39,540 nucleotides of DNA, from positions 1 to 39,540 of the forward strand of contig NZ_ALBT01000083.1 of assembly GCF_000766945.1 (NCBI RefSeq). The letters are read 5' to 3'. Source of the stretch: Cellvibrio mixtus subsp. mixtus J3-8 (lineage in GTDB: Bacteria; Pseudomonadota; Gammaproteobacteria; Pseudomonadales; Cellvibrionaceae). Of this stretch, positions 1,971 through 21,643 are shown piece after piece. Under the pieces are notes generated by a model. The model saw only the letters and a program-made list of their open reading frames with translations. It did not search any database and was not told where the DNA came from. Numbering within the stretch: position 1 is the stretch's first letter; every line of letters begins with the position of its first letter. The position numbers were made by a program, and so were the translations under genes.

Positions 1971-1988
1971 GTCCGGCCTCGGGCACCA
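1971..1988 (+). other. Attachment-site core: 3' end of a tRNA-Leu
   Basis: GTCCGGCCTCGGGCACCA fits the 3' end of a tRNA: end of the T arm, acceptor strand CTCGGGC, discriminator A, then CCA. The matching 5' acceptor strand would be GCCCGAG, as in many bacterial tRNA-Leu genes. The bases before it do not form a T loop, so only the 3' end is present. It sits 149 bases before a P4-type integrase, where such elements keep their att site. No second copy was seen in the window. Confidence 0.65.
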
Positions 1989-2100
1989 TCTCCAAATTTC
2001 AGGAAATCCCAGAACGTCTCCAAACCCGCATAAACACTGGGTTTTAAGGCGTTTTTTGTCTATATACGTCCACCGAAATCCTATTGAAGCTACAACCATC

Positions 2101-2137: not shown

Positions 2138-3355
2138 ATGGCAACCAATAAGCTCACTGAAGTCGCAATCAAGAAGGCTAAGCCAAAAGAGAAGCCATTC
2201 AAGCTTGCTGATGGCGGCGGTTTGTATTTAGAAGTCATGCCGAATGGCTCCAAATATTGGCGAATGAAATACCGTTTTGGTGGAAAAGAAAAACGTCTTG
2301 CCTTTGGTGTTTATCCATTAATTTCTCTTGCATCTGCACGCGAAAAAACTCGACTCGCAAAACTGGAATTAGTTGAAGGCAAGGATCCGGGCGAGATCAA
2401 AAGACAAGAAAAATTAAGCAAGCGAATTTCTGCATCGAACACTTTTTCAGCGATTGCTGCTGAGTACATTAAGAAGAAAGAAATTGAGGGCGCTGCTCCC
2501 GTAACCCTCGATAAGCTCAAGTGGATAGTTGATCAAAAGTTATCCCCTTTTATCGGCAACACCCCTGTTTCAGAAATCACTTCAGCAAAGTTGCTCGTAC
2601 CATTACGGCAAATCGAAATTGACGGTTTGCACGAAACTGCTAACCGAGCCAAAAGGGTTGCCGGTCAGGTCATGCGCTATGCAGTCGGTTTGGGGTTGGC
2701 TAATAGAGACCCATCCCAAGATCTTAAAGATGTATTGGTCACCGCCAAGGCCAACCACAGGGCTGCCATTACCGACCCAAAAGAGCTGCGCAAGGTTCTC
2801 ATCAGTATTGATAGCTACAGCGGTACGCCGGAAGTCAGGGCTGCTCTAAGGCTCACCCCAATACTATTTCAGCGCCCAGGTGAAATCCGACAAATGGAAT
2901 GGGCTGAGATCAATTGGGAAAAGGAGTATTGGGAAATCCCGGCAGGCAAAATGAAAATGCGCTCTGCCCACATAGTGCCTCTTCCAAGGCAGGCCATAGA
3001 AATCTTGAGAGAGCTGGAGCCAATTACCGGGCGCAACCGCTACGTGATGCCCAGCGCCAGACGTGATGGTCGCCCCATGTCAGAAAATGGCGTCCGTACT
3101 GCCTTGAGGTCTTTGGGTTACTCAAACGACCAAGTTACACCTCACGGATTCAGGGCGACGGCCCGTACTATCCTTGATGAGATCTTGCACGTTCGTGTTG
3201 ACTATATTGAACAGCAGCTTGCGCATGCTGTTAAGGATACAAATGGCCGGGCGTACAACCGGACTAGGCATCTTCCTGAACGGAAAGAGATGATGCAGGT
3301 GTGGGCGGATTATTTGGATGCCTTGCGCGTTGGCAAACACCGTCAGGAAAAGTAA
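2138..3355 (+). CDS. P4-type tyrosine integrase (DUF4102 N-terminal domain)
   Basis: A 405-residue site-specific recombinase that inserts and excises the island by strand exchange at an att site. The N terminus (LADGGGLYLEVMPNGSKYW, then RFGGKEKRLAFGVYP) is the DUF4102 arm-binding domain of P4/CP4 integrases. It is followed by a SAM-like core-binding domain and the catalytic domain. Visible catalytic residues are Arg246 (in RPGEI), His336 and Arg339 (HGFR), His363 (LAHAV) and the nucleophile Tyr373 (GRAYNR). The length is normal and the gene looks intact. GGAGG lies seven bases before the ATG. The tRNA-Leu 3' fragment at 1971 is the probable att site, and P4-type integrases commonly use tRNA-Leu genes. 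It opens the island that carries the defence genes. Confidence 0.95.
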   Translation: MATNKLTEVAIKKAKPKEKPFKLADGGGLYLEVMPNGSKYWRMKYRFGGKEKRLAFGVYPLISLASAREKTRLAKLELVEGKDPGEIKRQEKLSKRISASNTFSAIAAEYIKKKEIEGAAPVTLDKLKWIVDQKLSPFIGNTPVSEITSAKLLVPLRQIEIDGLHETANRAKRVAGQVMRYAVGLGLANRDPSQDLKDVLVTAKANHRAAITDPKELRKVLISIDSYSGTPEVRAALRLTPILFQRPGEIRQMEWAEINWEKEYWEIPAGKMKMRSAHIVPLPRQAIEILRELEPITGRNRYVMPSARRDGRPMSENGVRTALRSLGYSNDQVTPHGFRATARTILDEILHVRVDYIEQQLAHAVKDTNGRAYNRTRHLPERKEMMQVWADYLDALRVGKHRQEK

Positions 3356-4278: not shown

Positions 4279-4546
4279 AAATCACTCAGTAATATTTCAG
4301 ATTAATTTAGTGCTTAATAAAGACTTAATTAAGCATAATTTACGTCTCATTTAAGTTATCAATTTAGACTAATTGTTGTATAAATAAAGGTATCTTGGCA
4401 GTTTTCATGCGTTCGCACTTAATCTGTCCTTCTAGGTTACTCAGAAAACTTGAGATTTTTGCTTTAACTTTCTATTGCGTAACGACTATCAAGAAACAAA
4501 AAATACTTCCTTCCCTTATCTCATGACTCAAATATTGGAGGCAGTC

Positions 4547-4759
4547 ATGAGAATTATTCGTTTAAAAGAAGTGATAGATAGCACCGGTCTGGCCCGATCG
4601 ACTGTTTATAAATATGTCGCTGAAGGTTCGTTTCCTAAGCCCGTGTCATTGGGGGATAGGTCGGTTGGCTGGGTGGAGAGTGAGGTGCACGAGTGGGTGC
4701 TAGCTCGTATAGAAGAACGAGATAGGGGTGAGGTTTTCTCGGGTAAGGTAATAGCCTAG
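4547..4759 (+). CDS. AlpA-family excisionase/transcription regulator
   Basis: A 70-residue protein beginning MRIIRLKEVIDSTGLARSTV, followed by YKYVAEGSFPKPVSLGDRS and VGWVESEVHEW. This is the full AlpA signature: a MerR-like winged helix that binds DNA to drive excision or integrase expression in CP4-57 and P4-like elements. I chose ATG 4547 because GGAG precedes it at 4537-4540 and the family starts here. A longer TTG frame from 4475 adds residues with no family match. It is followed at once by a hairpin terminator, so it is probably monocistronic. The combination with the P4 integrase and the YfjJ/Gp2-like gene repeats the CP4-57 gene set. Confidence 0.9.
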   Translation: MRIIRLKEVIDSTGLARSTVYKYVAEGSFPKPVSLGDRSVGWVESEVHEWVLARIEERDRGEVFSGKVIA

Positions 4760-5020: not shown

Positions 5021-5686
5021 ATGAGTAAGCGAGTATCAGGTCAATATCACTTATCTCTGCATCAGCAGCCTACCTATAAAGGGCTTCCCATACTTAACTG
5101 TAAGGATGGCTTCGTAGAGGAATATCTGGAACGATTGCTATGCACAATCAATCGTAGCCTTCAGTGTCACTCGAAAGTATTTGCTGCAAGAGTCGATTTG
5201 CATTTTCCCCAATATCATTTCCCTGAGGGGCAGGAGATTTTTTCAAACGAATATCTGCACCTATTTATCAAGGCTTTAAGGCGTAAGCTCCAGCGCTACA
5301 AAACCGAAAAGCAGGGTGCGGGGCAGCGTGTGCATAGTCTGGGTTTTGAATATGTTTGGACTAGAGAATATGGCCCTTCTAGTGATAAGCCTCACTTCCA
5401 TCTCCTCCTGCTATTCAGTGGTCATGCATTCAATTCGTTAGGTCATTTTTCTAATGCCCATGAAAGTCTGTATAACCGCATTGGTGAATCTTGGGGAGAG
5501 GCGTTGGGCGTTCATGTGGTTGAAGGAAACAAATTCACTCACTTTCCTGAAATTGGTCAATATTTGGTAGATTCTAGAAATGCAGACCAAATGGCTCAGG
5601 TGTTCTGCCGGGCTAGCTATCTCGCCAAGGTCGTCTCCAAAAATTTCCATGATGGATTTCATGTGTTTGGTGGTAGCCGAGAGTGA
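5021..5686 (+). CDS. Inovirus Gp2 / YagK-YfjJ family HUH replication protein
   Basis: A 221-residue protein of the inovirus Gp2 type, the family of E. coli YfjJ and YagK in the CP4-57 and CP4-6 elements. It shows the HUH endonuclease core: His125-Phe-His127 in PHFHLLLL binds the metal, and the Tyr200 region (ASYLAKVVSK) fits the Y-x-x-K nicking motif. Such proteins nick one strand to start rolling-circle replication. TAGGAG lies seven bases before the ATG. The length agrees with the family and nothing looks broken. It is flanked by the AlpA terminator and by the defence cluster's leader region. It is the element's likely replication initiator; whether it acts on the repeats near 1343-1687 is unknown. 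Confidence 0.8.
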   Translation: MSKRVSGQYHLSLHQQPTYKGLPILNCKDGFVEEYLERLLCTINRSLQCHSKVFAARVDLHFPQYHFPEGQEIFSNEYLHLFIKALRRKLQRYKTEKQGAGQRVHSLGFEYVWTREYGPSSDKPHFHLLLLFSGHAFNSLGHFSNAHESLYNRIGESWGEALGVHVVEGNKFTHFPEIGQYLVDSRNADQMAQVFCRASYLAKVVSKNFHDGFHVFGGSRE

Positions 5687-5899: not shown

Positions 5900-8800
5900 A
5901 TGGTCGAGTCTGTTGCGAATAAGCTGGAAAAAAGCCGTCAGTCTTTGCTTGATCTGTCCACAAGAAATCGTCTTCTGAGTCTACCCAAGCGAGCTACCGG
6001 TAAGCTTCTGAACATCTACGATGAACTAACTTCCGAGGTCTACAAAAGGCTCGTTCTTGAGAGCAAAAGTATGACCTTCCTGCCAGGAAGGACAGTAGAG
6101 CAAGATCCTGACGAAGTCGCGCCTGATGACGAGAGTGGAGTTTCGCTTCCCCAGCCCGATGATGAGCTGGATGAAAATGGGATGGCCACTCGCCATAAGG
6201 ATGCGAAGCTTCAAACCAAACTCGCATCCGATAAGTTGCAGCACCGTTTGCTTGAAATGTATTACGACGCCCGTACTTTTATTGAAGAGCAGGGCGTTAA
6301 CATCCTCTACCTTGGTTTGGGCCAGCTTAAATGGTTTGACCGAAATGCCCCCGATAAAGAGCGTTCTGCTCCTCTGATTCTCTTACCAGTTGCATTGGAG
6401 CGTAAAAGCGCAGCAGAGCGTTTTCACCTTGTATGGTTGCAAGAAGATGCTTCGGAAAATTTATCGTTAGCGGCGAAACTAAAAGCCGATTTCGGTTTGA
6501 TATTGCCGGAGTTCAAAGCCGGTGATGATTTCGATCCGGTTGCTTATATTGATGAAGTTTCGAAGTCTATCTCTTCGCAGGAGGGTTGGTCTGTTGAGCC
6601 CAATGCGATGGTGCTTGGCTTTTTCAGCTTTGCAAAATTCCTCATGTACCGGGATTTAGATCCGGAAACATGGCCCGCGAACAAACGTATCGATCAGCAA
6701 CCACTCATCTTGGCTACCTTACAAAACGGCTTCCCGGCACGAGGTGAGATTTTTCCAGACAATACCCATGTCGATAAAATCGTACCCGTCTCTGAACAGC
6801 GCCATGTGGTTGATGCAGACAGTTCCCAATCTCTTGCTATCGAGGCTGTGCGTAAAGGTGAAAACTTGGTTATCCAGGGACCACCTGGTACAGGTAAATC
6901 CCAAACAATCACTAATGTCATTGCAGCAGCTGTCGCTGATGGTAAAAAAGTCCTTTTCGTATCTGAAAAAATGGCTGCTTTAGAAGTGGTGTATCGCCGA
7001 CTAAATGCCATAGGTTTAGGCCCTGCCTGTATTGAGTTACACAGTAATAGAACGAATAAACGCAGGGTTCTTGACGAGCTAAAAGCGGCACGTGATTTAG
7101 GACGTCCAAAGATAGAGCGGCGGGACGAATTGGTTCAGGAGTTGAGCAAAACCCGTGATGAGTTGAATCGTCATGTGGCGGTTATGCATGCGCGGGTAAA
7201 GCCTACCGGGATAACGCCCTTTAATGTGGTTGGGCATCTTGTTCGATTACAGAATATTCGTTTATCCGGGTTGCCTACCTTGTTGGAAAAACCTGAGGCT
7301 TGGACTTACGAAGATTTTCGCGCTCGCAAAACACTTCTATCGGATTATCAACAAAAAGCAGAAAAAGTTGGCGCTGCTGCAAGTCACCCATGGCGAGGTT
7401 GTGGTCACCTAGCGTTGCTGAAATTGGATGCTGATAATCTTCAGGAAAAAATCCCCAACGTTCAAATCCTTTCAGAAGATCTTTTAAGCATCACCCAGGG
7501 ATTAGCGAATGCGTTAGGTTTTGCATCGCCGAGTACACTGACTGAAATAGCTGAGCAGATTCGTCTGAGCAAGTTAATTGGGGCGGCTCCTACTCTTGAT
7601 CGCGCTGCTGTTGCAAATGCGATTTGGAGTAACGGCATAAAAGAACTGGCTTCGTTGGTAGAGCTTGGCGTCAAATTCCAAAGCAGTTACACAAAACTAC
7701 AACAGTCCTTTGTTGAATCGGCTTGGAAAGAAGAGCTCGATCCCTGTCGTAGACAAATTGCCGCTAACGGTGACTCCTTGTTCCGTTTTTTAATGGGCGA
7801 TTATAGGAAAGCATTGGCGACAATAAAGTCACATTGCAAAGCAGAATTTCCAAAATCAAAACAGGAACGGCTGGCATTAGTTGATGAATTAATTGAGTCG
7901 CAACAGTTGCGTAAATCCATTGCGGACAAAGATTCTATTGGGCGAGCAGCCTTCGGAACGCTCTGGGGCGGCGAAAAAAGTGATTGGGGTAAGTTGGGTG
8001 AAGTTCTTCACTGGATGAAGGGGCAGGATGGCAATGGGCTGTCTGAAACATTTCGTTCGATGTATTCAGCGTTGCCGGAACCAACAAAATGCACACAACA
8101 AGGTGTCTTGGCAGAAAAGCAATCACAACTATTTCAACAAGCACTCACTTCATTAATTACCGCTTATAAACTCGATCTAAAAGAAGCATTTGGTGTTGAT
8201 AGTGAAAATGCAATCAATCTCTCTGAGCTGAATGCCCGTTTAGCATCCTGGAAGGCAGAGCCAGAGCGCTTGTTTGATTGGATGCAATATCAATATATCA
8301 GGAAAGAGGCAAGGGAGCGCGGCTTGGGCGAACTGATCAATCAGTTAGAAAAAGGCGTAATACCACTTGAGCAAATTATTTTGTATTTCGAGCGTGCTTA
8401 CTACGAGCGTTTACTGAAAGGTTTAAGCAACAGCTTGCCTGAATTGGCAACTTTTGATGGCGACCAACATACCAATAAGGTGGAACGTTTCCGCACACTT
8501 GATAAGCAGCGTATAGAGTTGGCTAGAGCAGAAGCTGCGTTAAAGCATTTTGATCAAATTCCCCGAACCGTCGGTGGTATTGGCCCGATGGGCACGTTGA
8601 ATGCTGAGATTGCTCGTAAACGCGGACATATGCCACTCAGAAAACTTTTCAAACTAACCGGCGAAGCAATTCAAGCAATTAAACCAGTTTTTATGATGAG
8701 TCCTCTTTCTGTTGCACAATTTTTAGAACCAGGGTCAGTTGAATTTGACATCTTGGTTATCGATGAGGCCAGTCAAATTGAACCAGTCGACGCACTAGGC

Positions 8801-10642
8801 GCAGTTGCCAGATGCAAGCAACTGGTTGTGGTTGGTGATGATCGCCAATTACCGCCAACCCGCTTTTTCTCCCGCATGACGACCGAATCAGAAACCTCTG
8901 ACGATGACGACGAGTCCTTCGTTGCTGGTGCAAGCGATGTTGAAAGTATCCTGAGTCTTTGCATGGCTCGCGGCATGCCACAAATGATGTTGCGTTGGCA
9001 CTATCGTAGTCGCCATCAATCGTTGATTGCAGTCTCTAATCAGCAATTCTATAAAAATGAATTGTTTATCGTTCCAAGCCCATTTACTGCTGCCTCAGGA
9101 GCGGGGTTAAGGTTTAACTATGTTCCCAATGGTGTATTTGATAGTGGTGGGACGCGAGTAAACCGCGAAGAGGCAAAAGTTATTGCTGCGAAAATTATTG
9201 AGCATGCCAAAAATAATCCCCACCAAAGCTTGGGGGTCGCTGCATTTTCCCTTCAGCAAAAAATAGCAATTCAAGATGAACTTGAACTGCTGCGCCGCAA
9301 ACATTTGGACGTTGAACCTTATTTTAATAATCATCCGAATGAGCCCTTCTTTATAAAAAATCTTGAAAATGTTCAGGGGGACGAGCGTGATGTAATTTTC
9401 ATTTCTGTTGCCTACGCAAGAAACTCGTCCGGTTATTTGCCGATGAAATTTGGCCCCGTCAGTATGGACGGTGGAGAGCGAAGACTTAACGTACTTATTT
9501 CTCGTGCAAAACTGCGCTGCGAAGTGTTTTCTTCAATTAAGGCGGAAGATATCGACCTTGATCGTGGTAAAGGGAAGGGTGTTGCTGCGCTCAAGGTTTT
9601 CTTGAGTTACGCGGAGACCGGCAGGTTATCAATCGCAAGTCGTGAAAGTAGGGAGATGGAGTCTCCGTTTGAAGAAGAGGTTAAAGCTGCCTTGGAGGCG
9701 AAAGGCCTAACCATCCATCCTCAAATCGGAATTGCAGGATTCTTTATTGATCTAGCTATCTTGGATCAAGAGAAAACAGGCCGTTACTTACTGGGTATTG
9801 AATGCGATGGTACGAGTTACCATTCATCACGTTCAGCTCGTGATAGGGATCGCTTGCGTCAGGCCGTGTTGGAAGATCATGGGTGGATATTGCATCGAGT
9901 CTGGAGCACCGATTGGTTTAGACAACCTGAAAGAGAAGTAAACAAAATTCTCAGTGCGTTGGATGCGGCTAAAGCAGAGCTAACTGCTCGGCAAGAAAGG
10001 GATATACAAAAAGAGGCGGGTAGAGTACAGGTAAATATTGTTGATCGAGATGACCATTCTGTTATCGAGTTAACTACATTAAAGAACGAAGCAAATAAAT
10101 ATCAGGAAGCAAATTTTGATGTTCCCAAGCATGTAGAGCTTCATGAAGTCCCGGTAACTCGCCTCGCTCAAATTATTCATCAAGTTGTAGAAATTGAAGG
10201 GCCTATCCATAACGATGAAGTTATTACTCGTATTAGAACTTTATGGGGGCTTCAGCGTGCGGGCAATCGAATTCGTGATGTGTTGGAAGAAGCCAAAAAA
10301 ATCGCCTTAGCTGGAGGAGGTGTATCTGCGGATGGAGACTTTTTGGATATTTCTAACCGGCCTATACGGGTTCGTGACCGTTCTGATGTGTTATCAGTAA
10401 ACCTCCGTAAACCGGAGTTCTTACCACATCAAGAGATTCATGAGGCGATCAATAAAGTCTTGCTTGATAACCTGGGTGGCAAGAGGGATGAAATTCCATC
10501 TGAGGTTGCAAAAAGGCTAGGTTTTAATGTGGTTAGCTCTCAGCTAAGAGATCTAATCTCAAGCGGACTGGATGTTTTACATCACAGAGGAAAGGTTGAA
10601 TTATCAGAAGGAATTTTTCGTTGGAGCAACACTAATATTTAG
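5900..10642 (+). CDS. DUF4011 - SF1 helicase - REase - DUF3320 protein (Hhe-like)
   Basis: A 1580-residue multidomain protein. Domains in order: DUF4011 at the N terminus (LLDLSTRNRLLSL near residue 15); a superfamily 1 helicase of the DNA2/NAM7 type with Walker A GPPGTGKS at 327-334, Walker B VIDEAS near 953-958, GDDRQLPP after it, and the late motif NVQGDERDVIFIS; a Vsr/MTES_1575-like PD-(D/E)xK nuclease about 1250-1350 (Glu1258, Asp1284, Glu1301 in GIECDG); then DUF3320 about 1416-1465. The same order of domains is, to my knowledge, that of the single-gene Hhe defence protein and related giant helicases. It should unwind or translocate on DNA and cleave it. All key motifs are present. It is the first gene of the plus-strand cluster, 134 bases before the SIR2 gene, and begins with AGGGA and ATG. 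Confidence 0.9.
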   Translation: MVESVANKLEKSRQSLLDLSTRNRLLSLPKRATGKLLNIYDELTSEVYKRLVLESKSMTFLPGRTVEQDPDEVAPDDESGVSLPQPDDELDENGMATRHKDAKLQTKLASDKLQHRLLEMYYDARTFIEEQGVNILYLGLGQLKWFDRNAPDKERSAPLILLPVALERKSAAERFHLVWLQEDASENLSLAAKLKADFGLILPEFKAGDDFDPVAYIDEVSKSISSQEGWSVEPNAMVLGFFSFAKFLMYRDLDPETWPANKRIDQQPLILATLQNGFPARGEIFPDNTHVDKIVPVSEQRHVVDADSSQSLAIEAVRKGENLVIQGPPGTGKSQTITNVIAAAVADGKKVLFVSEKMAALEVVYRRLNAIGLGPACIELHSNRTNKRRVLDELKAARDLGRPKIERRDELVQELSKTRDELNRHVAVMHARVKPTGITPFNVVGHLVRLQNIRLSGLPTLLEKPEAWTYEDFRARKTLLSDYQQKAEKVGAAASHPWRGCGHLALLKLDADNLQEKIPNVQILSEDLLSITQGLANALGFASPSTLTEIAEQIRLSKLIGAAPTLDRAAVANAIWSNGIKELASLVELGVKFQSSYTKLQQSFVESAWKEELDPCRRQIAANGDSLFRFLMGDYRKALATIKSHCKAEFPKSKQERLALVDELIESQQLRKSIADKDSIGRAAFGTLWGGEKSDWGKLGEVLHWMKGQDGNGLSETFRSMYSALPEPTKCTQQGVLAEKQSQLFQQALTSLITAYKLDLKEAFGVDSENAINLSELNARLASWKAEPERLFDWMQYQYIRKEARERGLGELINQLEKGVIPLEQIILYFERAYYERLLKGLSNSLPELATFDGDQHTNKVERFRTLDKQRIELARAEAALKHFDQIPRTVGGIGPMGTLNAEIARKRGHMPLRKLFKLTGEAIQAIKPVFMMSPLSVAQFLEPGSVEFDILVIDEASQIEPVDALGAVARCKQLVVVGDDRQLPPTRFFSRMTTESETSDDDDESFVAGASDVESILSLCMARGMPQMMLRWHYRSRHQSLIAVSNQQFYKNELFIVPSPFTAASGAGLRFNYVPNGVFDSGGTRVNREEAKVIAAKIIEHAKNNPHQSLGVAAFSLQQKIAIQDELELLRRKHLDVEPYFNNHPNEPFFIKNLENVQGDERDVIFISVAYARNSSGYLPMKFGPVSMDGGERRLNVLISRAKLRCEVFSSIKAEDIDLDRGKGKGVAALKVFLSYAETGRLSIASRESREMESPFEEEVKAALEAKGLTIHPQIGIAGFFIDLAILDQEKTGRYLLGIECDGTSYHSSRSARDRDRLRQAVLEDHGWILHRVWSTDWFRQPEREVNKILSALDAAKAELTARQERDIQKEAGRVQVNIVDRDDHSVIELTTLKNEANKYQEANFDVPKHVELHEVPVTRLAQIIHQVVEIEGPIHNDEVITRIRTLWGLQRAGNRIRDVLEEAKKIALAGGGVSADGDFLDISNRPIRVRDRSDVLSVNLRKPEFLPHQEIHEAINKVLLDNLGGKRDEIPSEVAKRLGFNVVSSQLRDLISSGLDVLHHRGKVELSEGIFRWSNTNI

Positions 10643-10776
10643 TTCTTCGTAAGTGAATTTTAATCAACTATTCCATGTTTCTGAAAGAAGGAAAACTCAA
10701 AAGCTTTTCTAATTTTTTGCTTCAAACAACAATTGATGCTTGTAAGATCAGTCAGCTCGTTATCTGAGAGAGAAAT

Positions 10777-12054
10777 ATGAGTCAAAATACAGTACATAAT
10801 CCAGATCGTTATATGGCGGACTTGAGGCAAATACTGTCACAAGGGAAAAAGCGTATTGGTATATTATTGGGTGCAGGGGCGCCTGTATCTTTAAGAGTCG
10901 ATGGCGAAGGAAAGTTAAGTGATACAGGCAGCTCAATTATCCCTGATGTTGCTGGGCTTACGAAATATGTGTTCGAAAATATTCTTGATGAAGATAGAAA
11001 AATTGTCGATCTTTTGCTGCCTGAGTTGGATCCCAATCCTAATATTGAAACAATACTGACCCGAATTCGCAGGCTTTCCCAAGCTATTGGAACTATTAAG
11101 ATTCATGGGTTGGATGGCTCAGGCTATGAGGCTCTTGCAGAAAGAATATGTGAGAAAATCGGAGAGCGAGTGGCGCCATCATTACCGCAAGAAGTAAATC
11201 CGTACACTGAATTAGTTTCATGGGTCAGCGGCATTACCAGAGATCATCCCGTAGAGATTTTTTCTCCTAACTATGACTTACTTCTTGAAGAAGCTTTTGA
11301 GCGAGCGCATCTACCTTATTTTGATGGGTTTTCTGGGGCCCATAAACCATTTTTTGATCCAACGAGTGTTGCAACTGATCGACTTCCTTCTCGTTGGTCC
11401 CGTTTATGGAAGATCCACGGTTCACTTGGATGGGATATTTCTGGTGGGACAGTTATTAGAACGGGAAGCCGAAGTGCGACAAAATTAATATATCCAGATC
11501 ACCTAAAATACGATCAAATATCGCGCCAGCCATTTTCATCTTTATTTGAAAGATTGAAATCCTTTCTTACCACTCCAGATAGCCTTTTAATTTGCACGGG
11601 GTTTTCATTTTTTGATTCTCACATTGCTGCTGTTCTAGATGAAGCATTAGAAGCGAATAAGCACACTGCGGTTCTTGCTTTTCAATATAAAAATTTATCC
11701 GATGAAATGTATGCTGTTGGTTTAGCATTAAAGCGGCCAAATATGAGTGTTTATGCACGAGACGGTGCTGTAATCTTTGGTGTGAAAGGCAATTGGGTTC
11801 CAGGGCAATCGCCTAGTAATGAGTGGCTTAACATTCGGCGCACCTTTTGGGGAGGAACTGGAGAAAACACATCAAATCAATTTCTTCTTGGCGATTTTTC
11901 TAAATTAGCTAGATTTTTTGCTCTTTCGCAATCATCTGAATTTATTTTTCAAAAGAATGCTGATGATGCTATCACGGAAGGAGAAGACTCTCCTTCTTCA
12001 GTTGATGAGGAAGATAGTATGAGTGCAGGAGAGAATAATGACTCTAAGTCGTGA
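10777..12054 (+). CDS. SIR2-like NADase (defence effector)
   Basis: A 425-residue SIR2-family protein. GILLGAGAPVS (Gly32-Ala35 region) is the NAD-binding loop. FSPNYDLLLE contains Asn165 and Asp167, matching the SIR2 N-x-D motif, and KIHGSLGW supplies the catalytic-type His214. The later LLICTGFSFFDSHI block is typical of SIR2_2 proteins. In phage defence such proteins usually destroy NAD+ when triggered, stopping infection by killing or arresting the cell. The last 35 residues are acidic and low in complexity. The gene overlaps the start of the HerA gene by 17 bases, so the two are translated together. This is the pairing known as SIR2-HerA (Nezha), where both proteins form one large complex. 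GAGAGA precedes the ATG. Confidence 0.9.
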   Translation: MSQNTVHNPDRYMADLRQILSQGKKRIGILLGAGAPVSLRVDGEGKLSDTGSSIIPDVAGLTKYVFENILDEDRKIVDLLLPELDPNPNIETILTRIRRLSQAIGTIKIHGLDGSGYEALAERICEKIGERVAPSLPQEVNPYTELVSWVSGITRDHPVEIFSPNYDLLLEEAFERAHLPYFDGFSGAHKPFFDPTSVATDRLPSRWSRLWKIHGSLGWDISGGTVIRTGSRSATKLIYPDHLKYDQISRQPFSSLFERLKSFLTTPDSLLICTGFSFFDSHIAAVLDEALEANKHTAVLAFQYKNLSDEMYAVGLALKRPNMSVYARDGAVIFGVKGNWVPGQSPSNEWLNIRRTFWGGTGENTSNQFLLGDFSKLARFFALSQSSEFIFQKNADDAITEGEDSPSSVDEEDSMSAGENNDSKS

Positions 12055-13858
12055 TCCAACATATATGGGTTCAGTTGAGTCTGTTTCCGGTTCCTCCGTT
12101 AGTGTACATCTGGCTAAATCAATTGCATCGGGATTATCAATTATCGAGGGTAGAACTTATCGAATTGGCCAGGTGGGGAGCTTTGTACGTATACCTCAAG
12201 GGTATCAAGACTTGTTTGGTGTCGTATCAGAGGTGGGAGCAAAAGCAATGCCTTCCAATTTGGATTCGGCTGCTGGTGAGACTGGTAGATGGATGCAGGT
12301 CCAATTAATTGGGGAGTCTGTTGGTAGCGTATTTGAGCGAGGTATAAGTCAATATCCAAATATTGGAGACAGTGTGCACATAACTACGGAATCAAATTTG
12401 GCTCGTATTTATGGGGCGAGTAAGTTTGGCCAAATTGTTATCGGCACTCTCTCCAGTGCAGAAAGTATTCCTGCTAAGGTATCGTTGAATGAGTTAGTGA
12501 CTAGGCATTCTGCAGTTTTGGGGTCAACTGGGTCTGGTAAGTCCACCACTACGGCAAGCTTGCTACGCTCTATATGTGGGAATTCTGAATACCCGAGTGC
12601 TCGAATTTTGATGCTTGATGTTCATGGCGAATATGCAGAGGCTCTTTCTGATGTTGCAACAATTTTTTCAGTTGATCCAAGGCCTGGAGAAAAGGAGCTT
12701 TTTATCCCGTATTGGGCTCTAAGTAGTAATGAATTGCTTGATTTTTTAACTGGCGGTGTTAAGGACGCAAAAGAAACTGCATTTACGGACAAAATTTTTA
12801 GCCTAAAAATGCAATCTCATAATCATGCAAATTTTGCTGGTGTTGAATCAAACTCAATTACGGTTGATACGCCTATACCTTTTAGTTTGAAAAAATTATG
12901 GTATGAGTTAATTGATTTTGAAATTACAACTTTTGAAGGTCAGCACAGAGATCAGCCTACCAAACAAGATGATGGAGATATCGATGCACTTATTGCGCCG
13001 AAATATAAGCCCCATGGGATGGGTAGCACCCCACCGTTCATTAATACTCAAGCATTAGGAATCAGAAGACAATTAAATTTTCTTAGATCCAGACTTTTAG
13101 ATCGCCGCTATAATTTTTTACTTCATCCTGGTCCTTGGGAACCGGATATAAATGGAGTTCCACAATGCGATTTAGATTTTTTGCTTTCTGAATGGTTGGG
13201 TAATGAAAAACCAATTACTATCCTGGACTTATCAGGGGTTCCAAGTATTGTTTTGGAATTGTTAGTTGGCTCTATTTTGAAAATAGTTTATGAAGCTTTA
13301 TTTTGGAGTAGAGAAAAATCCGAGGGTGGAATAAATAGACCTTTGTTGGTGGTGATGGAGGAGGCCCATCGCTATCTATCAAAAGGGAAGAACAATCTGG
13401 CATCTGAAATAGTTCAGAAAATTGCGAAAGAAGGTCGCAAGTATGGTGTTGGTGCCATGGTAATTAGTCAAAGGCCATCTGAGGTTGATGAAACTATTTT
13501 ATCTCAGTGCGGGACATTTTTTGCGCTGCGTCTTTCGAATCCAGATGACCGGGGGCGAGTACAAGGTGCGTTACCTGATGGGTTGATAACTCTATTAGAT
13601 GTATTGCCAGTACTTCGAACTGGGGAAGCTATCGTAATGGGCGAAGCTGCTAAATTGCCAATGCGTTGTAGAATAACTCTGCCAGAAGAAGAATATCGAC
13701 CTAAAAGCAGTGATCCTAAAGTTGCAGTTCAATGGGCATATGTCAAAAAACTCGAAGGCTACGACCGCGTTGTGGCATCTTGGAGAGCACAAAAACCGCG
13801 CGCTGTTGTTAAAGTACTAGATATAACTAGAAGCTTAATTCCCACTGAAGAAAAATAA
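12038..13858 (+). CDS. HerA-like hexameric ATPase, partner of SIR2
   Basis: A 606-residue HerA/FtsK-fold ATPase. The N-terminal beta-barrel (HAS) domain (SGSSVSVHL, then TYRIGQVGSFVRI) is followed by Walker A GSTGSGKS at 162-169, Walker B VVMEEAH at about 438-444, and the AKEGRKYGVG / ISQRPSEVD segment that carries the arginine finger and sensor. HerA proteins form hexameric DNA pumps; in defence they are the scaffold and motor for an effector, here the SIR2 protein encoded just before. I prefer ATG 12038, with GGAG seven bases before it, over a GTG at 12023. No damage is seen. AGGAG between this stop and the KTSC gene suggests continued co-translation. Confidence 0.92.
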   Translation: MTLSRDPTYMGSVESVSGSSVSVHLAKSIASGLSIIEGRTYRIGQVGSFVRIPQGYQDLFGVVSEVGAKAMPSNLDSAAGETGRWMQVQLIGESVGSVFERGISQYPNIGDSVHITTESNLARIYGASKFGQIVIGTLSSAESIPAKVSLNELVTRHSAVLGSTGSGKSTTTASLLRSICGNSEYPSARILMLDVHGEYAEALSDVATIFSVDPRPGEKELFIPYWALSSNELLDFLTGGVKDAKETAFTDKIFSLKMQSHNHANFAGVESNSITVDTPIPFSLKKLWYELIDFEITTFEGQHRDQPTKQDDGDIDALIAPKYKPHGMGSTPPFINTQALGIRRQLNFLRSRLLDRRYNFLLHPGPWEPDINGVPQCDLDFLLSEWLGNEKPITILDLSGVPSIVLELLVGSILKIVYEALFWSREKSEGGINRPLLVVMEEAHRYLSKGKNNLASEIVQKIAKEGRKYGVGAMVISQRPSEVDETILSQCGTFFALRLSNPDDRGRVQGALPDGLITLLDVLPVLRTGEAIVMGEAAKLPMRCRITLPEEEYRPKSSDPKVAVQWAYVKKLEGYDRVVASWRAQKPRAVVKVLDITRSLIPTEEK

Positions 13859-13872
13859 ATTAGGAGTATGCA

Positions 13873-14082
13873 ATGGATAGAAATTACGTTTCGTCAACGA
13901 ATATAGCTTCGATTGGCTACGATGAGGGTACTGATACTTTAGAGGTGGAGTTTTTAAATGGTAGTGTTTATCAGTATTACAATATATCCAAGGAAATGTA
14001 TGATCAGTTAATGCAGGCAGGATCTAAAGGACAATTTTTCAATGCTTATATTAAGAATGCATATCCATACTCTAGGGTATGA
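13873..14082 (+). CDS. KTSC-domain small protein
   Basis: A 69-residue protein that consists of one KTSC domain: SSTNIASIGYDEGTDTLEVE, FLNGSVYQYYNI and SKGQFFNAYIKNAY are the conserved blocks. The family is small, of unknown biochemical role, and is found alone or fused to other domains such as lysyl-tRNA synthetase-like proteins. It starts 14 bases after the HerA stop with AGGAG correctly placed, so it is very probably in the same transcript as SIR2-HerA. A sensor, adaptor or accessory role in that system is only inference from position. Confidence 0.85.
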   Translation: MDRNYVSSTNIASIGYDEGTDTLEVEFLNGSVYQYYNISKEMYDQLMQAGSKGQFFNAYIKNAYPYSRV

Positions 14083-14188
14083 TCGCTTAATTAAAGTTAG
14101 TTATGTTTTACTTTTTAAAATTTTATGAACCAGATCGGTGAGGTCATGATATGGTTTTTGTGAAAAAAGTTGCGAAGGAAAAATAGTT

Positions 14189-15592
14189 ATGCACGAAATA
14201 ATCTGCCCTCATTGCAAAAAAGCATTCAAAATTGACGAAGCTGGGTATGCTGATATTCTAAAGCAAGTTCGGGATAACGATTTCGAGCAGCAGTTGCATG
14301 AACGGCTTGAATTGGCAGAGCAAGATAAGCGAAATGCTGTTGAATTGGCTACAACCAAGATCACTAGTGAGTTAGGAAAAGTCGCCTTTGCTAAGGATTC
14401 TGAAATCAAGGAGTTGAAAGCTAAGCTTGAAGCTGGTGAAGTCAAGCAGAAGCTTGCTGTAAATGAAGCGTTAGGTGTTTTGGAAAAAGAGCGTGATGTA
14501 CTGGCGAATGAGCTCAAACAAGCAAAACATGATAAACAGACTGACTTACAGCTTGCCGAAGCGAAGCTTGTGCATGAGCTTCAGAAAGCTACCGCAGTTA
14601 AAGATGGCGAAATTCAGGCGCTGAAAGCCCAACTCGATTCCATTCAGATCTCTCAAAGGCTTGCTATTACTACTGCGGTTAATACAGTTGAAAAAGAACG
14701 TGACCAACTGAAGAGTGACCTTGAGCGAGCAAGACTTGAGAAACAGCTTGCTGAAAGCTCACTCAAAGACAAGTATGAAACGCAAATCAAAGATCGCGAT
14801 GATACGATTGAACGCTTACGCGACATGAAGGCTCGCCTGTCAACCAAGATGGTTGGTGAAACACTTGAGCAGCATTGTGAGATTGAATTTAATCGAATCC
14901 GGGCAACAGCTTTTCCAAAAGCATATTTCGAGAAAGATAACGACGCTCGAAGCGGTAGCAAGGGAGATTACATTTTTCGAGATTCGGACGACGCTAACAC
15001 TGAAATAGTGTCGATAATGTTTGAAATGAAAAACGAAAATGACCAAACCGCTACCAAGAAAAAGAACGAAGACTTCCTAAAAGAGCTAGATAAAGATAGA
15101 AGTGAAAAAAATTGCGAATATGCAGTGCTTGTTTCACTTTTAGAGCCCGATAGTGAGCTTTACAACTCTGGGATTGTCGATGTCTCTCATCGCTTTCCGA
15201 AAATGTATATTGTCCGTCCCCAATTCTTCATCCCAATAATTACTTTACTTAGAAACGCTGCCCAGAATTCACTAAAGTTCAAAACAGAACTAGCACTCGT
15301 TAAGGCCCAGAATATCGATATTACTAACTTTGAGAGTGAGCTCGATGAATTTAAGACAGGCTTTGCTAGAAATTATGAGTTGGCCTCCAAGAAATTTAAA
15401 ACTGCAATAGATGAAATTGATAAAACTATTGATCACCTTCAAAAAACTAAAGAAGCTCTTCTTGGTTCTGAAAATAATCTTCGTCTTGCCAACAATAAAG
15501 CGGATGATTTGACGGTTAAGAAACTAACCAAAAATAACCCAACGATGGCTGCAAAGTTTGCTGAATTAAAGAGTAGTGAATCACCTAGTTAA
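14189..15592 (+). CDS. DUF2130 protein: coiled coil plus nuclease-like domain
   Basis: A 467-residue protein. It opens with [11 protein letters not shown], a CxxC pair that may be half of a zinc ribbon. A long coiled coil follows from about residue 25 to 225 (heptad-like runs rich in Glu, Lys, Leu). Then comes the DUF2130 core: [19 protein letters not shown], then [10 protein letters not shown] and [20 protein letters not shown]. The D..E-x-K arrangement (GDYIF ... FEMKNE) is the pattern of a PD-(D/E)xK nuclease fold. The function of the family is unsettled; it has been seen near DNA-processing and defence genes. It lies 106 bases after the KTSC gene in the same direction. The start is supported by GAAGGA. 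Confidence 0.88.
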
Positions 15593-15706
15593 AATTGAAT
15601 TTTTATCAAAAGCCAGTAATTGGCGAAAATCTATATCAAGGCCAGATGACATCTTGTTTTTTCAGTTTTAGGGTTATCAATAAAGTTAAATTATTCAGAG
15701 TTGCAG

Positions 15707-17227
15707 ATGAATAGCGCCAAATTAGGTTGGGGGCTTCATGCCTCTGGACGAATGCGTCATATTGAAATGGCTGAGCGAGGAAAGAAATGCGACTGTGTGT
15801 GCCCGGATTGCGGATCACCTCTTATTGCAAAAAAAGGCGATCAAGTGGTATGGCATTTTGCTCATGCCGTACCTATTGAGTGTAACGGCGAGAGTGCATT
15901 GCATCGGGCAGCGAAGCAAGTCATTGAGGATGCTGCAACTAATCATTTTTCAATATTGCTACCAGAAATTTCCGGCACGGTGTCCCAGCAGGATATAAGA
16001 AGACGTCATTTTGAGGGGGTGTGGAGTGTCCCATCTCGCCTTGCTGAAATAAGTGCGGCCAGTCAGGAAGTCAGAATCAGGTCTGATCTAATAGCGGATG
16101 TCTTAGCAATATGTGATCAACAGGAAGTTGCCATTGAAATATGTGTTACTAACAGAAAGACTGAAGTTGAACAGCAAAAATACGAAGCAGCAGATGTATC
16201 TTGTATTGAAATTATGCTTTTCGATATGAAGTGGAATGCTTCGGTTGAACTGATTGAGGAAGCGGTTCTAAGAAGCGCGTCTAGATGCTGGATTCATTGT
16301 GTACATGCCCGATATCGGATAGATGCAGCTAGGGTAGATCTTAATCAAAAAATTCAAGATCAGATTAGAGATGAGGCTGCTACCTTCGATGGATTCTGTT
16401 CGCTTATTATGGATTCAGAGATTAAACAGCTGAATCTGCTTAATTGGCCAATCCTCAAAGCAAAATTTTCTCAAACTAGTGATTCTAGTATTACAACAGT
16501 TGAGGTGAGCGAGACACCGAAAATTACCAAATTTTTAGATGTTTGTTCCAGATTTAACGGAATTATTGAGTCAACGGGAATTGTGAATAATAAAATACCT
16601 GTTGGTGTTTATTTTATTCTTGATGGTATTGATATATCTACCATTTCCATTGGTAGCCCCTCCCTGATTATCTCCGTAGATATCAATGAGTTTGAATCTG
16701 TGAGCCTTGAGAAATGTGGGCTTACTTGGGTTGGAATTGACCGTTGGATCGATAAGTTAAATGCTAAGGCTGTGGAAAAATATCAAAAACGAGAGAATCA
16801 GCGACTGGAGTCTGAAAAAAGAATAGATAGTTTTGCTGAATATTTTATTGGCTTAAATAACTTAGAAAAACTTGCATTTATTGCTAATAAGCTGAACATC
16901 TCACCGCCTTCTTATATCGGTCCTGTTGTTTTTCATTGGAATACAACTTGGTCTATATGGAAGGGACTGGTTTGGTACTACTATGTATTTAAAAAGAAAG
17001 AAGAAGTTGTTTATTTATCCTCAATAGCTGAATGTAAATGGTTATCTCGTCTTTTGAGTTGGTCTGATACAAGTGAATCTATTAACAAACGTCAAAAGGA
17101 CCTGTGGTTTTGGTTTAAAGATCTTGAGTCAATAGGATTGGTGGGGCACGAAGGGGCTCAATTCTTTAATGTTTCTAAGATGCTTCCCAAAAAATTTGTT
17201 CCATGGGAAAAAATTAAAGTTAAATGA
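15707..17227 (+). CDS. CoiA-like protein (predicted nuclease)
   Basis: A 506-residue protein whose N terminus matches the CoiA-like family: a zinc-binding block CVCPDCGSPLIAKKG ending in WHFAH, then a helical ALHRAAKQVIED segment, then RSDLIADVL ... EVAIEICVTN. The last resembles the nuclease core of CoiA, with an acidic residue followed by E-x-C in place of the more usual E-x-Q. CoiA takes part in processing DNA for recombination during competence in Gram-positive bacteria; Gram-negative homologues are mostly island-borne and uncharacterised. The remaining 300 residues, rich in Trp and Ile, match nothing I recognise. ATG 15707 is preferred to TTG 15701. It sits between the DUF2130 and NERD-helicase genes with gaps of about 100 bases. 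Confidence 0.75.
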   Translation: MNSAKLGWGLHASGRMRHIEMAERGKKCDCVCPDCGSPLIAKKGDQVVWHFAHAVPIECNGESALHRAAKQVIEDAATNHFSILLPEISGTVSQQDIRRRHFEGVWSVPSRLAEISAASQEVRIRSDLIADVLAICDQQEVAIEICVTNRKTEVEQQKYEAADVSCIEIMLFDMKWNASVELIEEAVLRSASRCWIHCVHARYRIDAARVDLNQKIQDQIRDEAATFDGFCSLIMDSEIKQLNLLNWPILKAKFSQTSDSSITTVEVSETPKITKFLDVCSRFNGIIESTGIVNNKIPVGVYFILDGIDISTISIGSPSLIISVDINEFESVSLEKCGLTWVGIDRWIDKLNAKAVEKYQKRENQRLESEKRIDSFAEYFIGLNNLEKLAFIANKLNISPPSYIGPVVFHWNTTWSIWKGLVWYYYVFKKKEEVVYLSSIAECKWLSRLLSWSDTSESINKRQKDLWFWFKDLESIGLVGHEGAQFFNVSKMLPKKFVPWEKIKVK

Positions 17228-17320
17228 GATTAGAAGTTAGATTACATTTTTCTTGGATATTTGGTGTTTAATTTTTTAGTTTTCATCTGAATACTTTTTA
17301 TTTTGCGTGGTTTGTAATAA

Positions 17321-19828
17321 ATGGCAGTGATGTACCCAGATTTTGGCCCTAAGGAAAATGATAGCTCGATAGCAGAGCCACTTGTTTATAATTTACTTAA
17401 AAGTGGGCTGGATGATAATTTTCATGTTATCCACAGTCTTCCATGGCTGTCCTCAATTGTGGACAAGTTTAGAGAGGGCAGTAAAAGTCCCATTGGGGAA
17501 ATTGATTTTTTGATTTTTCATGAGTTTTATGGTGTTTTGGCGATAGAGGTCAAGGGCGGGGCAATTCAGCACAATTCCAGTGGATTTTATTATAGTCAGG
17601 GCACGCAGGCATCAAATCCACAGGGACAGCTGAGGCGGGGTGTGTTTGCTCTTCAAAATTGGTTTAAGAATAAAGGGCGGCAACTGTTCATAGGTCACTG
17701 CTTTTGCTTTCCACAATCTCAAGTATCTTTGAATGACCTCCCACCTGAGGCGGTAGATTGGTCATGTGATCCTCCTTTGAATTTAGTGATAGATATTGAC
17801 GATATTCCCAATATCGAAAAGCGCATCACTGAAATTATGGACTACTTTCGTAAGCAGCGATTATTTGAAGCATTTAAAAGTAATGAGTTGTTGCAGCTTG
17901 TATCCTTAATTGTTCCCGAAAAAGACTACAGTCCATGTTGGTATTCCAGAATTGAAAATGACAATAGGGTATGGCTTAGTTTAACTCCTGAGCAGACAGA
18001 ATGTGTTGCTCTTGCGACAAAAAAGACAAAGTTCCTGGTAAGTGGTTGGCCTGGATCAGGTAAAACAATTGTCGCAATACAAACGGCTCGTAATTTATCT
18101 GATAACAATCAGCGTGTATTGTTCTTAACTGTTAATAAGCTTATAGCTGATAAAATCGAAGAAGAATTAACGGACTTTGCCAATACTAGTGTTTTTACCT
18201 TTCATGGTTTATGTCGTCAATCCGCTGAATTTTGTGGTTTGGCAGTTGAGGGTAATGATTGGTTGAATGATGGTGCTTATAAAGCGCTTGAACAATCGAA
18301 AGAGTTTCATTTTTTTGATCAATATGATGCTCTGATTGTTGATGAGGGGCAGGCAATTAGAGAAATCGGTTGGCAGACACTATTTTCTGCGTTCGAACAT
18401 AAGAAGATTGTTGTTATGTATGATGTTGCTCAGGCATTCCCTTATGAGCAGCCGTCTACAGGAGAACAATTGGAAGCGTTTATCGGCGCAAAACCTTATT
18501 TATTAACACAAAGCTTAAGAATTCCAAAAGCAATTTGTAATCGTTTAAAACTGTTTGTTATGCCCGAGTATTCGGTGACAAATCCTCGGTATGAGGAGCT
18601 GGATGCATTAGCCGAAATAGCTGCTCACAGTCAGGAGACCAGTTTATCTCAGGTGATACAGAAGCTTAGAGCAGAGAATATTCCTTTCGAATGGATTACC
18701 GTGCTCAAACCTTCATCGAAAAGTGTTTCTGTAGAATTGGTCCCTCAAGGAATTAGGGTTGAAACAATTGGGCGTTATCGAGGAATGGAATCGCCAATAA
18801 TTATAATTTTTGCTCATGCAGATATGTCGGACACAGAGTTTTTTTGTGCATATTCTAGAGCGACTAGCCGTTGTATAGTGATTTTAGATGCTTTTGATGT
18901 TAGCGAGGAACGGTATTCGAGTTTAGGAAAGGCGTTATATCTTGAGAAAAAAGATGATGTTGATACTGAGTTGAAGAAATCATTTGTTTCAACCGCCATT
19001 CATAATAGTTCTTTGTTATTTGAGCCGGTCATTGGTGGCAGTGTTGCTATTAATTGGTGTGGTTATTGGAATGGTTATTCATTGTGTCCTCAAATACCTG
19101 AGTCCTTTAGATTATTAGTTGTTGAACACTTTACTCAAGTTGAGTCGCCCCTGATTTATACCTGGAGAAATAAAGATCGACAATATTGCAGGTTAATTCC
19201 TGAGCATTCCATAGGTTTTACTTCTTCTGTTTCATTACGGTTTTGTCAGATTTGTGGTGCACTAACACCGCATGTAACAGATATTATTGATATTCAGCGT
19301 GCCCTAATTGATAAGGAGGTTTCAACAGGTGGCATTGGCAATGAGAGGAGAATATGCGTACCTTGTAGAACTAGTTTTAATTCAAGAGATGAGCGTTTTG
19401 AAGGTCATTATGAATATATCAATGATATTCTTGAAAATCCAAATGATCATCCTGATGAGGTAAGGAAGAGCATAGATCCATATCTTTTTGCTATTGGTGT
19501 AATGAAAAGACATAAATTTAAGCATGATGAAAAATTGCTTATTGATTTAATTGATTCACATGCAGGAATTGGTAAGGTTGCAATGGTGTTGGCAATTTTT
19601 GTTTTACATAAAGATTATGTTAGGCGAAGGATTTTTGAATTTAAAATATCAGAAGTGGCCAAGGCGTGCCATAATTTTAATGATGGCTTGAAAGAATTTT
19701 CATTTCCCCAGTGGCAAGGATTTGTAAATGCCGCGTGCGCTAACCTTGAAAAGCTCAAGGTTATTGAGACCGTTAGTAAAGGGCAGAGGAAAATTAATGA
19801 GGAAATATTTGGAACGATAATTGGTTGA
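17321..19828 (+). CDS. NERD nuclease - UvrD-like helicase with C-terminal zinc motif
   Basis: An 835-residue protein. Residues 20-170 form a NERD (nuclease-related) domain, with GEIDFLIF and LAIEVKGG as the D..E-x-K site. A superfamily 1 (UvrD/Rep-type) helicase follows: GWPGSGKT at 242-249, VDEGQ at 340-344 and the late block RVETIGRYRGMESPI with AYSRATSR. The last 290 residues hold two CxxC pairs (Cys642/645 and Cys679/682), probably one zinc site, followed by a helical tail. NERD-helicases are common in defence islands and may cut and unwind invading DNA. This is the last gene of the plus-strand cluster; a strong terminator follows 28 bases after its stop. All motifs are present. A second in-frame ATG is at 17330, and no good ribosome-binding site precedes either start. 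Confidence 0.85.
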   Translation: MAVMYPDFGPKENDSSIAEPLVYNLLKSGLDDNFHVIHSLPWLSSIVDKFREGSKSPIGEIDFLIFHEFYGVLAIEVKGGAIQHNSSGFYYSQGTQASNPQGQLRRGVFALQNWFKNKGRQLFIGHCFCFPQSQVSLNDLPPEAVDWSCDPPLNLVIDIDDIPNIEKRITEIMDYFRKQRLFEAFKSNELLQLVSLIVPEKDYSPCWYSRIENDNRVWLSLTPEQTECVALATKKTKFLVSGWPGSGKTIVAIQTARNLSDNNQRVLFLTVNKLIADKIEEELTDFANTSVFTFHGLCRQSAEFCGLAVEGNDWLNDGAYKALEQSKEFHFFDQYDALIVDEGQAIREIGWQTLFSAFEHKKIVVMYDVAQAFPYEQPSTGEQLEAFIGAKPYLLTQSLRIPKAICNRLKLFVMPEYSVTNPRYEELDALAEIAAHSQETSLSQVIQKLRAENIPFEWITVLKPSSKSVSVELVPQGIRVETIGRYRGMESPIIIIFAHADMSDTEFFCAYSRATSRCIVILDAFDVSEERYSSLGKALYLEKKDDVDTELKKSFVSTAIHNSSLLFEPVIGGSVAINWCGYWNGYSLCPQIPESFRLLVVEHFTQVESPLIYTWRNKDRQYCRLIPEHSIGFTSSVSLRFCQICGALTPHVTDIIDIQRALIDKEVSTGGIGNERRICVPCRTSFNSRDERFEGHYEYINDILENPNDHPDEVRKSIDPYLFAIGVMKRHKFKHDEKLLIDLIDSHAGIGKVAMVLAIFVLHKDYVRRRIFEFKISEVAKACHNFNDGLKEFSFPQWQGFVNAACANLEKLKVIETVSKGQRKINEEIFGTIIG

Positions 19829-19856: not shown

Positions 19857-19898
19857 AAGAAGACAAGTCAGTTTTGTAGTGTAGTGACTTGTCTTCTT
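19857..19898 (+). terminator. Strong terminator at the end of the defence cluster
   Basis: A perfect 14-bp stem: AAGAAGACAAGTCA (19857-19870) with its complement at 19885-19898 and a 14-base loop. T/A-rich on both sides, so it may serve both the NERD-helicase gene and the convergent lipoprotein gene. Confidence 0.8.
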
Positions 19899-20828: not shown

Positions 20829-21137
20829 ATGCTGATATTCTCCAAAAGGTTAAAGGCAGCAAGGCAAGAAGCTGCTCTATCTCAAGAGCGGTTAGGAATT
20901 TTGGCCGGTATTGATGAAATGTCTGCAAGTGCCAGGATGAATCAATATGAGAAAGGTAAGCATGAACCTGATTTTTCAATGGTAGAACGATTAGCAAAGG
21001 TATTAAATGTGCCTGAAGCGTACTTTTACGCAAAGGATGACGATATTGCTTCGATAGCTGTGCAAATACACAGAATAAATAAAGATAAAAAGGCACAAGT
21101 TTTAATGAGGCTAAAAGAATGTTTATTGGAGTTATAA
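20829..21137 (+). CDS. Xre-family helix-turn-helix regulator
   Basis: A 102-residue Cro/cI-type regulator. The helix-turn-helix spans about residues 5-60 (RLKAARQEAALSQERLGILA, then NQYEKGKHEPDFSMVERLAK, then VLNVPEAYF). The short tail may dimerise. An unusually strong AGGAGG at 20818-20823 precedes the ATG. It is transcribed away from the lipoprotein gene and converges on the RadC-like gene, only five bases apart at their stops. The two palindromes just upstream are its probable operators, giving negative autoregulation. It may also control the lipoprotein gene. The gene looks intact. Confidence 0.88.
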   Translation: MLIFSKRLKAARQEAALSQERLGILAGIDEMSASARMNQYEKGKHEPDFSMVERLAKVLNVPEAYFYAKDDDIASIAVQIHRINKDKKAQVLMRLKECLLEL

Positions 21138-21142
21138 AATGC

Positions 21143-21643
21143 TTAAATTAGGCCTCTTTCAGCAAAACTCACTATATCAATCCCTCCCACCACCAAATGA
21201 TCCAACACCCTGACATCAATAGTATCGAGAGCCTGGATTACACGAGTGGTAATACGTTTGTCAGCTTCGCTTGGCATTGCGGTTCCGCTGGGGTGATTGT
21301 GGGCCAAAATCACGGATGCTGAGTTGTTGTCGAGCACGGCTTTTACGATCTCTCGCGGATAGATTGCGGCACCGTCAATCGTCCCCTGAAATAAGGTTTC
21401 ATAACCAAGAACACCATTTTGATTATCTAGGAAAATAACAATAAAAAGCTCCCGATGTTCTTTGGCGAGAATAATTTGCAGAAATTCTCTCGTGGCATCT
21501 GGTGAGGTTAAATAATTACTGCGGGTAAATCGTTTCGTTACAATTTTTTCTGCCCAATAAAGGACATCTTCCTCCGAAATATTTTCAGGAAGTTTTTCTG
21601 TCTCTGTATTCTCCGTGGAATTTAGATACAAATCGTTACTCAT
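21143..21643 (-). CDS. RadC-like JAB/MPN-domain protein (short, island type)
   Basis: A 166-residue protein with the JAMM metal site AHNHPSG: His115, His117, then Asp128 in PSEADKR, ten residues on. This is the RadC C-terminal domain; the helix-hairpin-helix half of chromosomal RadC (about 225 residues) is missing. This short form is typical of CP4-like islands (YkfG, YfjY, YeeS). Despite its name, RadC has no proven repair role, and the JAMM domain may be a peptidase or nuclease. The N-terminal 25 residues are acidic and unlike the family. It follows the glycine-zipper gene on the minus strand, but a strong hairpin lies between them. Confidence 0.85.
   Translation of the reverse strand: MSNDLYLNSTENTETEKLPENISEEDVLYWAEKIVTKRFTRSNYLTSPDATREFLQIILAKEHRELFIVIFLDNQNGVLGYETLFQGTIDGAAIYPREIVKAVLDNNSASVILAHNHPSGTAMPSEADKRITTRVIQALDTIDVRVLDHLVVGGIDIVSFAERGLI

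Follow-up and report, generated by a model that had tools for sequence, protein, structure and literature searches.

The question and the gene cluster

Seven genes stand in a row on the plus strand at positions 5900-19828 of a stretch of Cellvibrio mixtus subsp. mixtus J3-8 DNA, and the question that they raise is whether they form one composite antiphage system or a stack of separate modules. The whole stretch analysed, called the window here, is 39,540 nucleotides (nt) long and runs from base 1 of its contig (NZ_ALBT01000083.1) in a genome of 5.18 Mb. An earlier note, made from the letters of the window, had left both answers standing. We hold it to be quite likely that a mobile element carries stacked defence genes around a three-gene core, SIR2-HerA-KTSC, which is a KTSC-bearing form of the known system Nezha. 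The genes, and the hairpin behind them, are as follows.

5900..10642, plus strand: giant protein with DUF4011, superfamily 1 (SF1) helicase, MTES_1575 restriction endonuclease (REase) and DUF3320, equal to PDC-S37 (open reading frame, Pfam, PADLOC); a separate single-gene module
10777..12054, plus strand: SIR2, predicted NAD-hydrolysing enzyme (NADase) of the Nezha unit, with N165-Y166-D167 and H214 (Pfam SIR2_2, PADLOC)
12023..13858, plus strand: HerA ATPase of the Nezha unit (Pfam DUF87/HerA, PADLOC, fold)
13873..14082, plus strand: KTSC protein, probable third component of Nezha, here split off from HerA (Pfam KTSC, linkage, tree)
14189..15592, plus strand: DUF2130 protein, possible PD-(D/E)XK nuclease, occasional companion (Pfam, motif)
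15701..17227, plus strand: CoiA-like protein with CoiA_N and a possible nuclease domain, stacked module (Pfam)
17321..19828, plus strand: NERD-helicase, stacked module (Pfam NERD and AAA_19, weak UvrD-like helicase matches)
19857..19898, plus strand: terminator-like hairpin with 14-nt arms (folding)

The seven open reading frames and the families that the earlier note had named were all recovered, the Pfam domains of the giant being DUF4011, AAA_11/12, the MTES_1575 REase and DUF3320. Its spacing of about 100 bases with one overlap and a 14-base gap also agrees with measurement (134, -32, 14, 106, 108 and 93 nt from 5' to 3'). The three motors and the NADase that it counted hold as domain predictions, but only two of its four or more nucleases are backed by a profile (MTES_1575 and NERD), the DUF2130 and CoiA-like proteins showing residue patterns only. 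What it called a strong terminator is a stable hairpin of -24.5 kcal/mol (z -4.6, with 0 of 200 shuffled sequences equally stable) whose perfect arms, read by eye, lie at 19857-19870 and 19885-19898; its U-tract, however, is weak or short, and it is absent from the list of a simple terminator scan. A promoter scan was uninformative (21 sites against 36.7 in shuffled sequences), and an Rfam search gave no match.

SIR2, HerA and KTSC as a probable unit

The evidence that carries the core comes from the best 80 of 121 HerA relatives, which were found through HerA peptides in genome contigs (57-78% identity). At all 80 loci SIR2 lies upstream and KTSC lies downstream or is fused, on the same strand; KTSC is a separate gene directly after HerA in 67 and stands in frame at the HerA C-terminus in the remaining 13. 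When 1500 open reading frames from these loci were clustered, SIR2 came out at 79 loci; the neighbour family that ranked next stood at 9 of the 80. The loci belong to Pseudomonadota (65), Verrucomicrobiota (3), Chloroflexota (3), Thermodesulfobacteriota (2), Actinomycetota (2), Myxococcota (2), Spirochaetota (1) and Bacillota (1), with one lacking an assignment, and many are metagenome bins. On a HerA tree of 79 of the 80 loci and seven of eight KTSC-bearing plasmid rows (L172 was left out, and the tree came with a long-branch warning), the presence of KTSC takes one change and its fusion or splitting at least four. The complex closest by sequence among solved structures is the SIR2/HerA antiphage complex of PDB entries 8wiv, 8wld, 8woc, 8wod and 8wof (263 bits for SIR2, 592 bits for HerA); the HerA chain of 8wiv/8wld ends in a KTSC domain, whereas KTSC is a separate gene in the window. 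Because of the linkage at every locus, the 13 fusions, the solved HerA with a KTSC domain and the changes on the tree, we take SIR2-HerA-KTSC to be the real unit, a branch of Nezha that bears KTSC (the grouping is our own) and that is present here in split form.

The assignment to Nezha agrees with the catalytic residues. SIR2 adjoins HerA in the window, and the two match PADLOC models at 529 and 543 bits. Residues N165-Y166-D167 and H214 of SIR2 are kept in 78 of 79 rows; for the roles of the Asn and the His, passages in PMC11559045 and in PMC11263360 supply the analogy. The Walker A motif of HerA (G167-T175) and its Walker B stretch (L442-E447) are conserved in nearly all of the 80 rows, and fold comparison places the protein in the HerA family. 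Passages of PMC11559045 report that in the Vibrio cholerae Nezha, a SIR2 NADase with HerA as here, called SIR2-herA, immunity is lost with N168A or H227A in SIR2, and deletion of herA leads to more plaquing. Through homology only, these mutants support the suggestion that the window's unit depletes NAD+. The hallmark of Nezha is a 12:6 SIR2-HerA assembly with NAD+ depletion on infection, and by analogy the unit of the window may share both.

Other HerA systems resemble it less. E. coli Nezha (8j4u, 8su9 and others) has the SIR2 NADase and the same HerA fold in common with the window, yet its HerA chain, at 120 bits, is a much remoter relative and has no KTSC match. In HerA-DUF4297 the effector is DUF4297 instead of SIR2, and its chains have no KTSC match either. 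The HerA-KTSC-endoDNase variants described in part of PMC9503650 couple HerA with a KTSC gene as here, and the window adds SIR2.

Nezha is known as a defence system that destroys NAD, and KTSC looks like a third component of it that has been little described. Passages of the Nezha literature describe two genes, and the word KTSC occurs 0 times in the main text of PMC11559045, as far as that source was available. For KTSC together with HerA, the literature searched gave, beyond PMC9503650, only a jumbo-phage paper; the structure papers (Tang 2023, Shen 2023, Zhen 2024) may well discuss KTSC. No PADLOC model matched the window's KTSC at E 1e-3. If KTSC is obligate, two-gene clones of split systems are incomplete, and KTSC offers a handle on how Nezha senses infection.

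A different account would make KTSC a linked passenger or a translation-related RNA-binding protein that is no subunit at all. KTSC is otherwise rare, with 10 carriers among 185 genomes from the window's class and 1 among 14 control genomes. Its nine other places comprise one SIR2-HerA-KTSC, one fusion of KTSC to a shortened HerA frame, and seven that have neither HerA nor SIR2 in the stretches fetched, two of these seven being short contigs. KTSC without its partners in seven of the ten genomes is what a passenger would show; the linkage at 80 of 80 loci, the 13 fusions, the repeated changes between fused and split forms and the solved HerA with the domain speak against it, and we consider a passenger very unlikely.

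In our reading of KTSC as a subunit, the unit would work as follows. Most likely, a HerA hexamer docks onto rings of SIR2, and infection would switch on NAD+ hydrolysis by SIR2, which would stop phage growth. KTSC would be a small subunit that associates with HerA. In related systems the corresponding domain is fused to the C-terminus of HerA, and KTSC would be the free form of this domain; at the C-terminal face of HerA, KTSC probably either binds nucleic acid or gates activation. DUF2130 may serve SIR2-HerA-KTSC as an accessory nuclease, and PDC-S37, the CoiA-like gene and the NERD-helicase would be independent modules loaded beside the Nezha unit. The locus may protect its host against phage.

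Three observations concern related loci. The frame at L189 is a HerA-KTSC of 476 amino acids (aa) that lacks the N-terminal half of HerA, and its contig has no SIR2 match. On a plasmid of the archaeon Natrinema zhouii (L179, 4193-5285), SIR2-HerA-KTSC is followed by genes annotated as ADP-ribosylglycohydrolase, which could process SIR2 products. A KAP NTPase-like gene follows a fused HerA-KTSC at L050, L052, L053, L054 and L055 (Pfam was run on L050 only) and is possibly another accessory of such loci.

DUF2130 as a minor companion

Members of the DUF2130 family occur in the flanks of 5 of the 80 HerA loci, from two lineages besides the window, Bradyrhizobium and Aquabacterium (the Pfam check covered L060, L068 and L077). 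In three Bradyrhizobium loci (L068, L070, L077) the DUF2130 gene comes directly after KTSC with a 4-nt (ATGA) overlap; it lies upstream in L027 and upstream on the other strand in L060, and on a Bradyrhizobium plasmid it is the second gene after KTSC. From its base rate of 19 in 185 genomes of the window's class fewer than 0.1 locus would be expected in 80, an estimate that compares different taxa. The association of DUF2130 with SIR2-HerA-KTSC is real but minor.

These numbers bear on whether SIR2-HerA-KTSC-DUF2130 is a four-gene functional unit beside which the other three genes are stacked. The recurrence, the ATGA overlaps, the plasmid and the low expectation argue for such a unit; the flanks of the other 75 loci, in which DUF2130 was not found, the restriction to two further lineages, the varying placement, and the metallophosphoesterase, KAP NTPase or DUF2779 gene that takes the place after KTSC at other loci argue against it. 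On balance we think a four-gene unit somewhat unlikely and keep to the three-gene core. D260, E279 and K281 of the DUF2130 protein are nearly invariant (a D...ExK pattern), and its structure model, with a predicted local distance difference test score (pLDDT) of 60.9, is too poor for a fold test. A literature search on DUF2130 and phages, judged by title and abstract, found nothing related.

The giant, the CoiA-like gene and the NERD-helicase

The giant matches the PADLOC candidate family PDC-S37 over nearly its full length (1921 bits, protein 1-1572 to model 1-1543 of 1550), and the Hhe model at 761 bits in three stretches, the best of which covers residues 774-1358. No literature was found that names PDC-S37 or that treats DUF4011 together with DUF3320. 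The CoiA-like protein has a CoiA_N match only (residues 27-62), its D...E pattern being read by eye. A PDB sequence search gave only helicase-core/RecA-type matches for S37 and none, at the limits set, for the DUF2130, CoiA-like and NERD proteins. Scans of viral contigs found no relative of S37, NERD or CoiA and eight of DUF2130.

If all seven proteins cooperated against phage as one composite system, their families should keep company elsewhere. Relatives of S37 occur in 17 of 321 genomes (E 1e-50), of NERD in 8 of 321 (E 1e-10) and of the CoiA-like protein in 15 of 244 (E 1e-3), the window's genome included each time. Among the 80 HerA loci, CoiA and NERD were found at none and S37 at one or two. 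No two of the seven stand together in any of 37 neighbourhoods of S37, CoiA, NERD or DUF2130 relatives (E 1e-5), namely 29 fetched stretches, some of them short contigs, and eight DUF2130 loci on viral contigs. The earlier note had proposed counting the adjacency of the seven families across genomes, and within the genomes searched the full set is together only here; a near match of the whole cluster was absent from the E. coli and plasmid collections. Third-position guanine-plus-cytosine (GC) content is 0.40 in S37 and 0.37 in DUF2130, against 0.29-0.30 in SIR2/HerA, and 0.32 in the CoiA-like gene and 0.31 in NERD; the gap between S37 and SIR2/HerA is a further point against a seven-gene system. 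The single strand, the short gaps, the end hairpin and the SIR2-HerA-KTSC-DUF2130 order in Bradyrhizobium speak for such a system, to which we give very little credence.

The seven-gene unit was accordingly rejected on the neighbourhood counts, and the giant, the CoiA-like gene and the NERD-helicase look separately stacked. Of the two answers that the earlier note had offered, stacking suits these three genes, but the note missed that KTSC goes with SIR2-HerA, and also the four-gene order that recurs in Bradyrhizobium.

Several points weigh against a stack around a three-gene core. The sample of HerA loci leans to close relatives and its flank lengths vary, some of the SIR2 matches are partial (that of L056 is cut by the contig end), and the plasmid rows are 16 hand-picked among 60 listed, of 128 in all. 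KTSC also occurs without HerA in some genomes. DUF2130 stands beside the unit oftener than chance would have it, so the stack is not wholly random. The CoiA and NERD relatives are remote (about 23-36% identity in the longer matches), so that a close recurring set or pair could be missed, and two matches were not counted as presence, a 73-residue NERD-like one (E 8.5e-6) in L185, close to a HerA that lacks KTSC, and a weak S37 one (E 0.001) in L172. Third-position GC separates S37 and DUF2130 from SIR2/HerA but not the CoiA-like gene or NERD, and a single strand with gaps of about 100 nt and one end hairpin also fits one transcript.

Orphan KTSC in phages

KTSC matches were found in 74 of 50,697 phage records (E 1e-3), whereas one record matched the window's HerA (E 1e-20), through a gene annotated as terminase; the phages with KTSC may possibly have a distant HerA. 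Against a profile of Nezha KTSC, whose training members score 96-132 bits, the proteins from phages Seuss (Caulobacter) and PSTNGR2lys (Providencia) reach 109.1 and 101.5 bits, three other phage KTSC 61-75 and seven other chromosomal KTSC 28-63. The Seuss gene, which is not far from rIIB, has an overlap with a small gene upstream of it; the KTSC frames of PSTNGR2lys and Chenonceau are unannotated and on the strand opposite to the annotated genes there. A KTSC tree of 62 rows and 70 columns (every second of the 80 Nezha rows; the KTSC of L178 fell below the cut and was left out) did not place the phage rows; by path, two of the three in focus lie closest to a Nezha KTSC.

These proteins are, speculatively and as a lead only, candidate anti-Nezha mimics or triggers. 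A fuller version would have KTSC serve one branch of Nezha as a sensor or gate, a subunit both obligate and exchangeable, which the orphan KTSC of some phages would mimic or compete with, so as to block or trigger Nezha; we regard this as unlikely. Against mimicry, the five phage loci fetched were all picked from the top of the list, and the KTSC of more distant plasmid Nezha units, the three nearest excepted, score 24-80 bits, so that the score is no clean mark of kind. In Shewanella sp. phage 1/41 (L201, 2001-2483) the domain starts a 160-aa protein between the lysozyme and portal genes, a position that is also in keeping with a role in the virion or in lysis. If KTSC is obligate, the orphan phage proteins are direct and cheap candidates for counter-defence or trigger tests.

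The probable carrying element and its surroundings

Upstream of the cluster lie the following features.

1971..1989, plus strand: att-like 19-nt repeat, left edge of the carrying element, identical to the tRNA-Leu(UAA) 3' end region
2138..3355, plus strand: tyrosine integrase with an Arm-DNA-bind_3 domain (domain search)
4475..4759, plus strand: AlpA regulator (domain search)
5021..5686, plus strand: YagK/YfjJ-type protein (weak match to a replication-associated domain)

The intact tRNA-Leu(UAA) gene whose 3' end region the repeat repeats lies on another contig of the genome, and of 20 further genomes from the genus, 9 have a DNA match that starts at 1971 or 1972. Because of the repeat and these matches, the most likely carrier of the seven genes is an integrative mobile element that has gone into the 3' end of tRNA-Leu. 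No right end of it came to light: with up to three mismatches allowed, the 19-nt pattern occurs once in the window. Such cargo is already known, since SIR2 and HerA are named in part of PMC9122126 among the cargo of a hotspot of P4-like satellites. On contig C9 of the same genome (L170) a different integrase-like gene lies directly 3' of the intact tRNA-Leu(UAA), which suggests that the site may serve more than one element.

Right behind the cluster, at 20829-23097, a helix-turn-helix (HTH) gene, RadC and a second tyrosine integrase suggest a second mobile-element boundary; beside RadC stands a terminator-like perfect 18-nt inverted repeat with a 7-nt loop (21661-21703). At 23449-25647 a TIR gene matching ThsB (394 bits) and then an FRG-domain gene (PDC-S15) follow on the same strand, possibly a Thoeris-like or TIR-FRG pair. 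The minus strand at 25673-32430 carries a Wadjet set of JetA, JetB, JetC and JetD, matched by type-1 PADLOC models.
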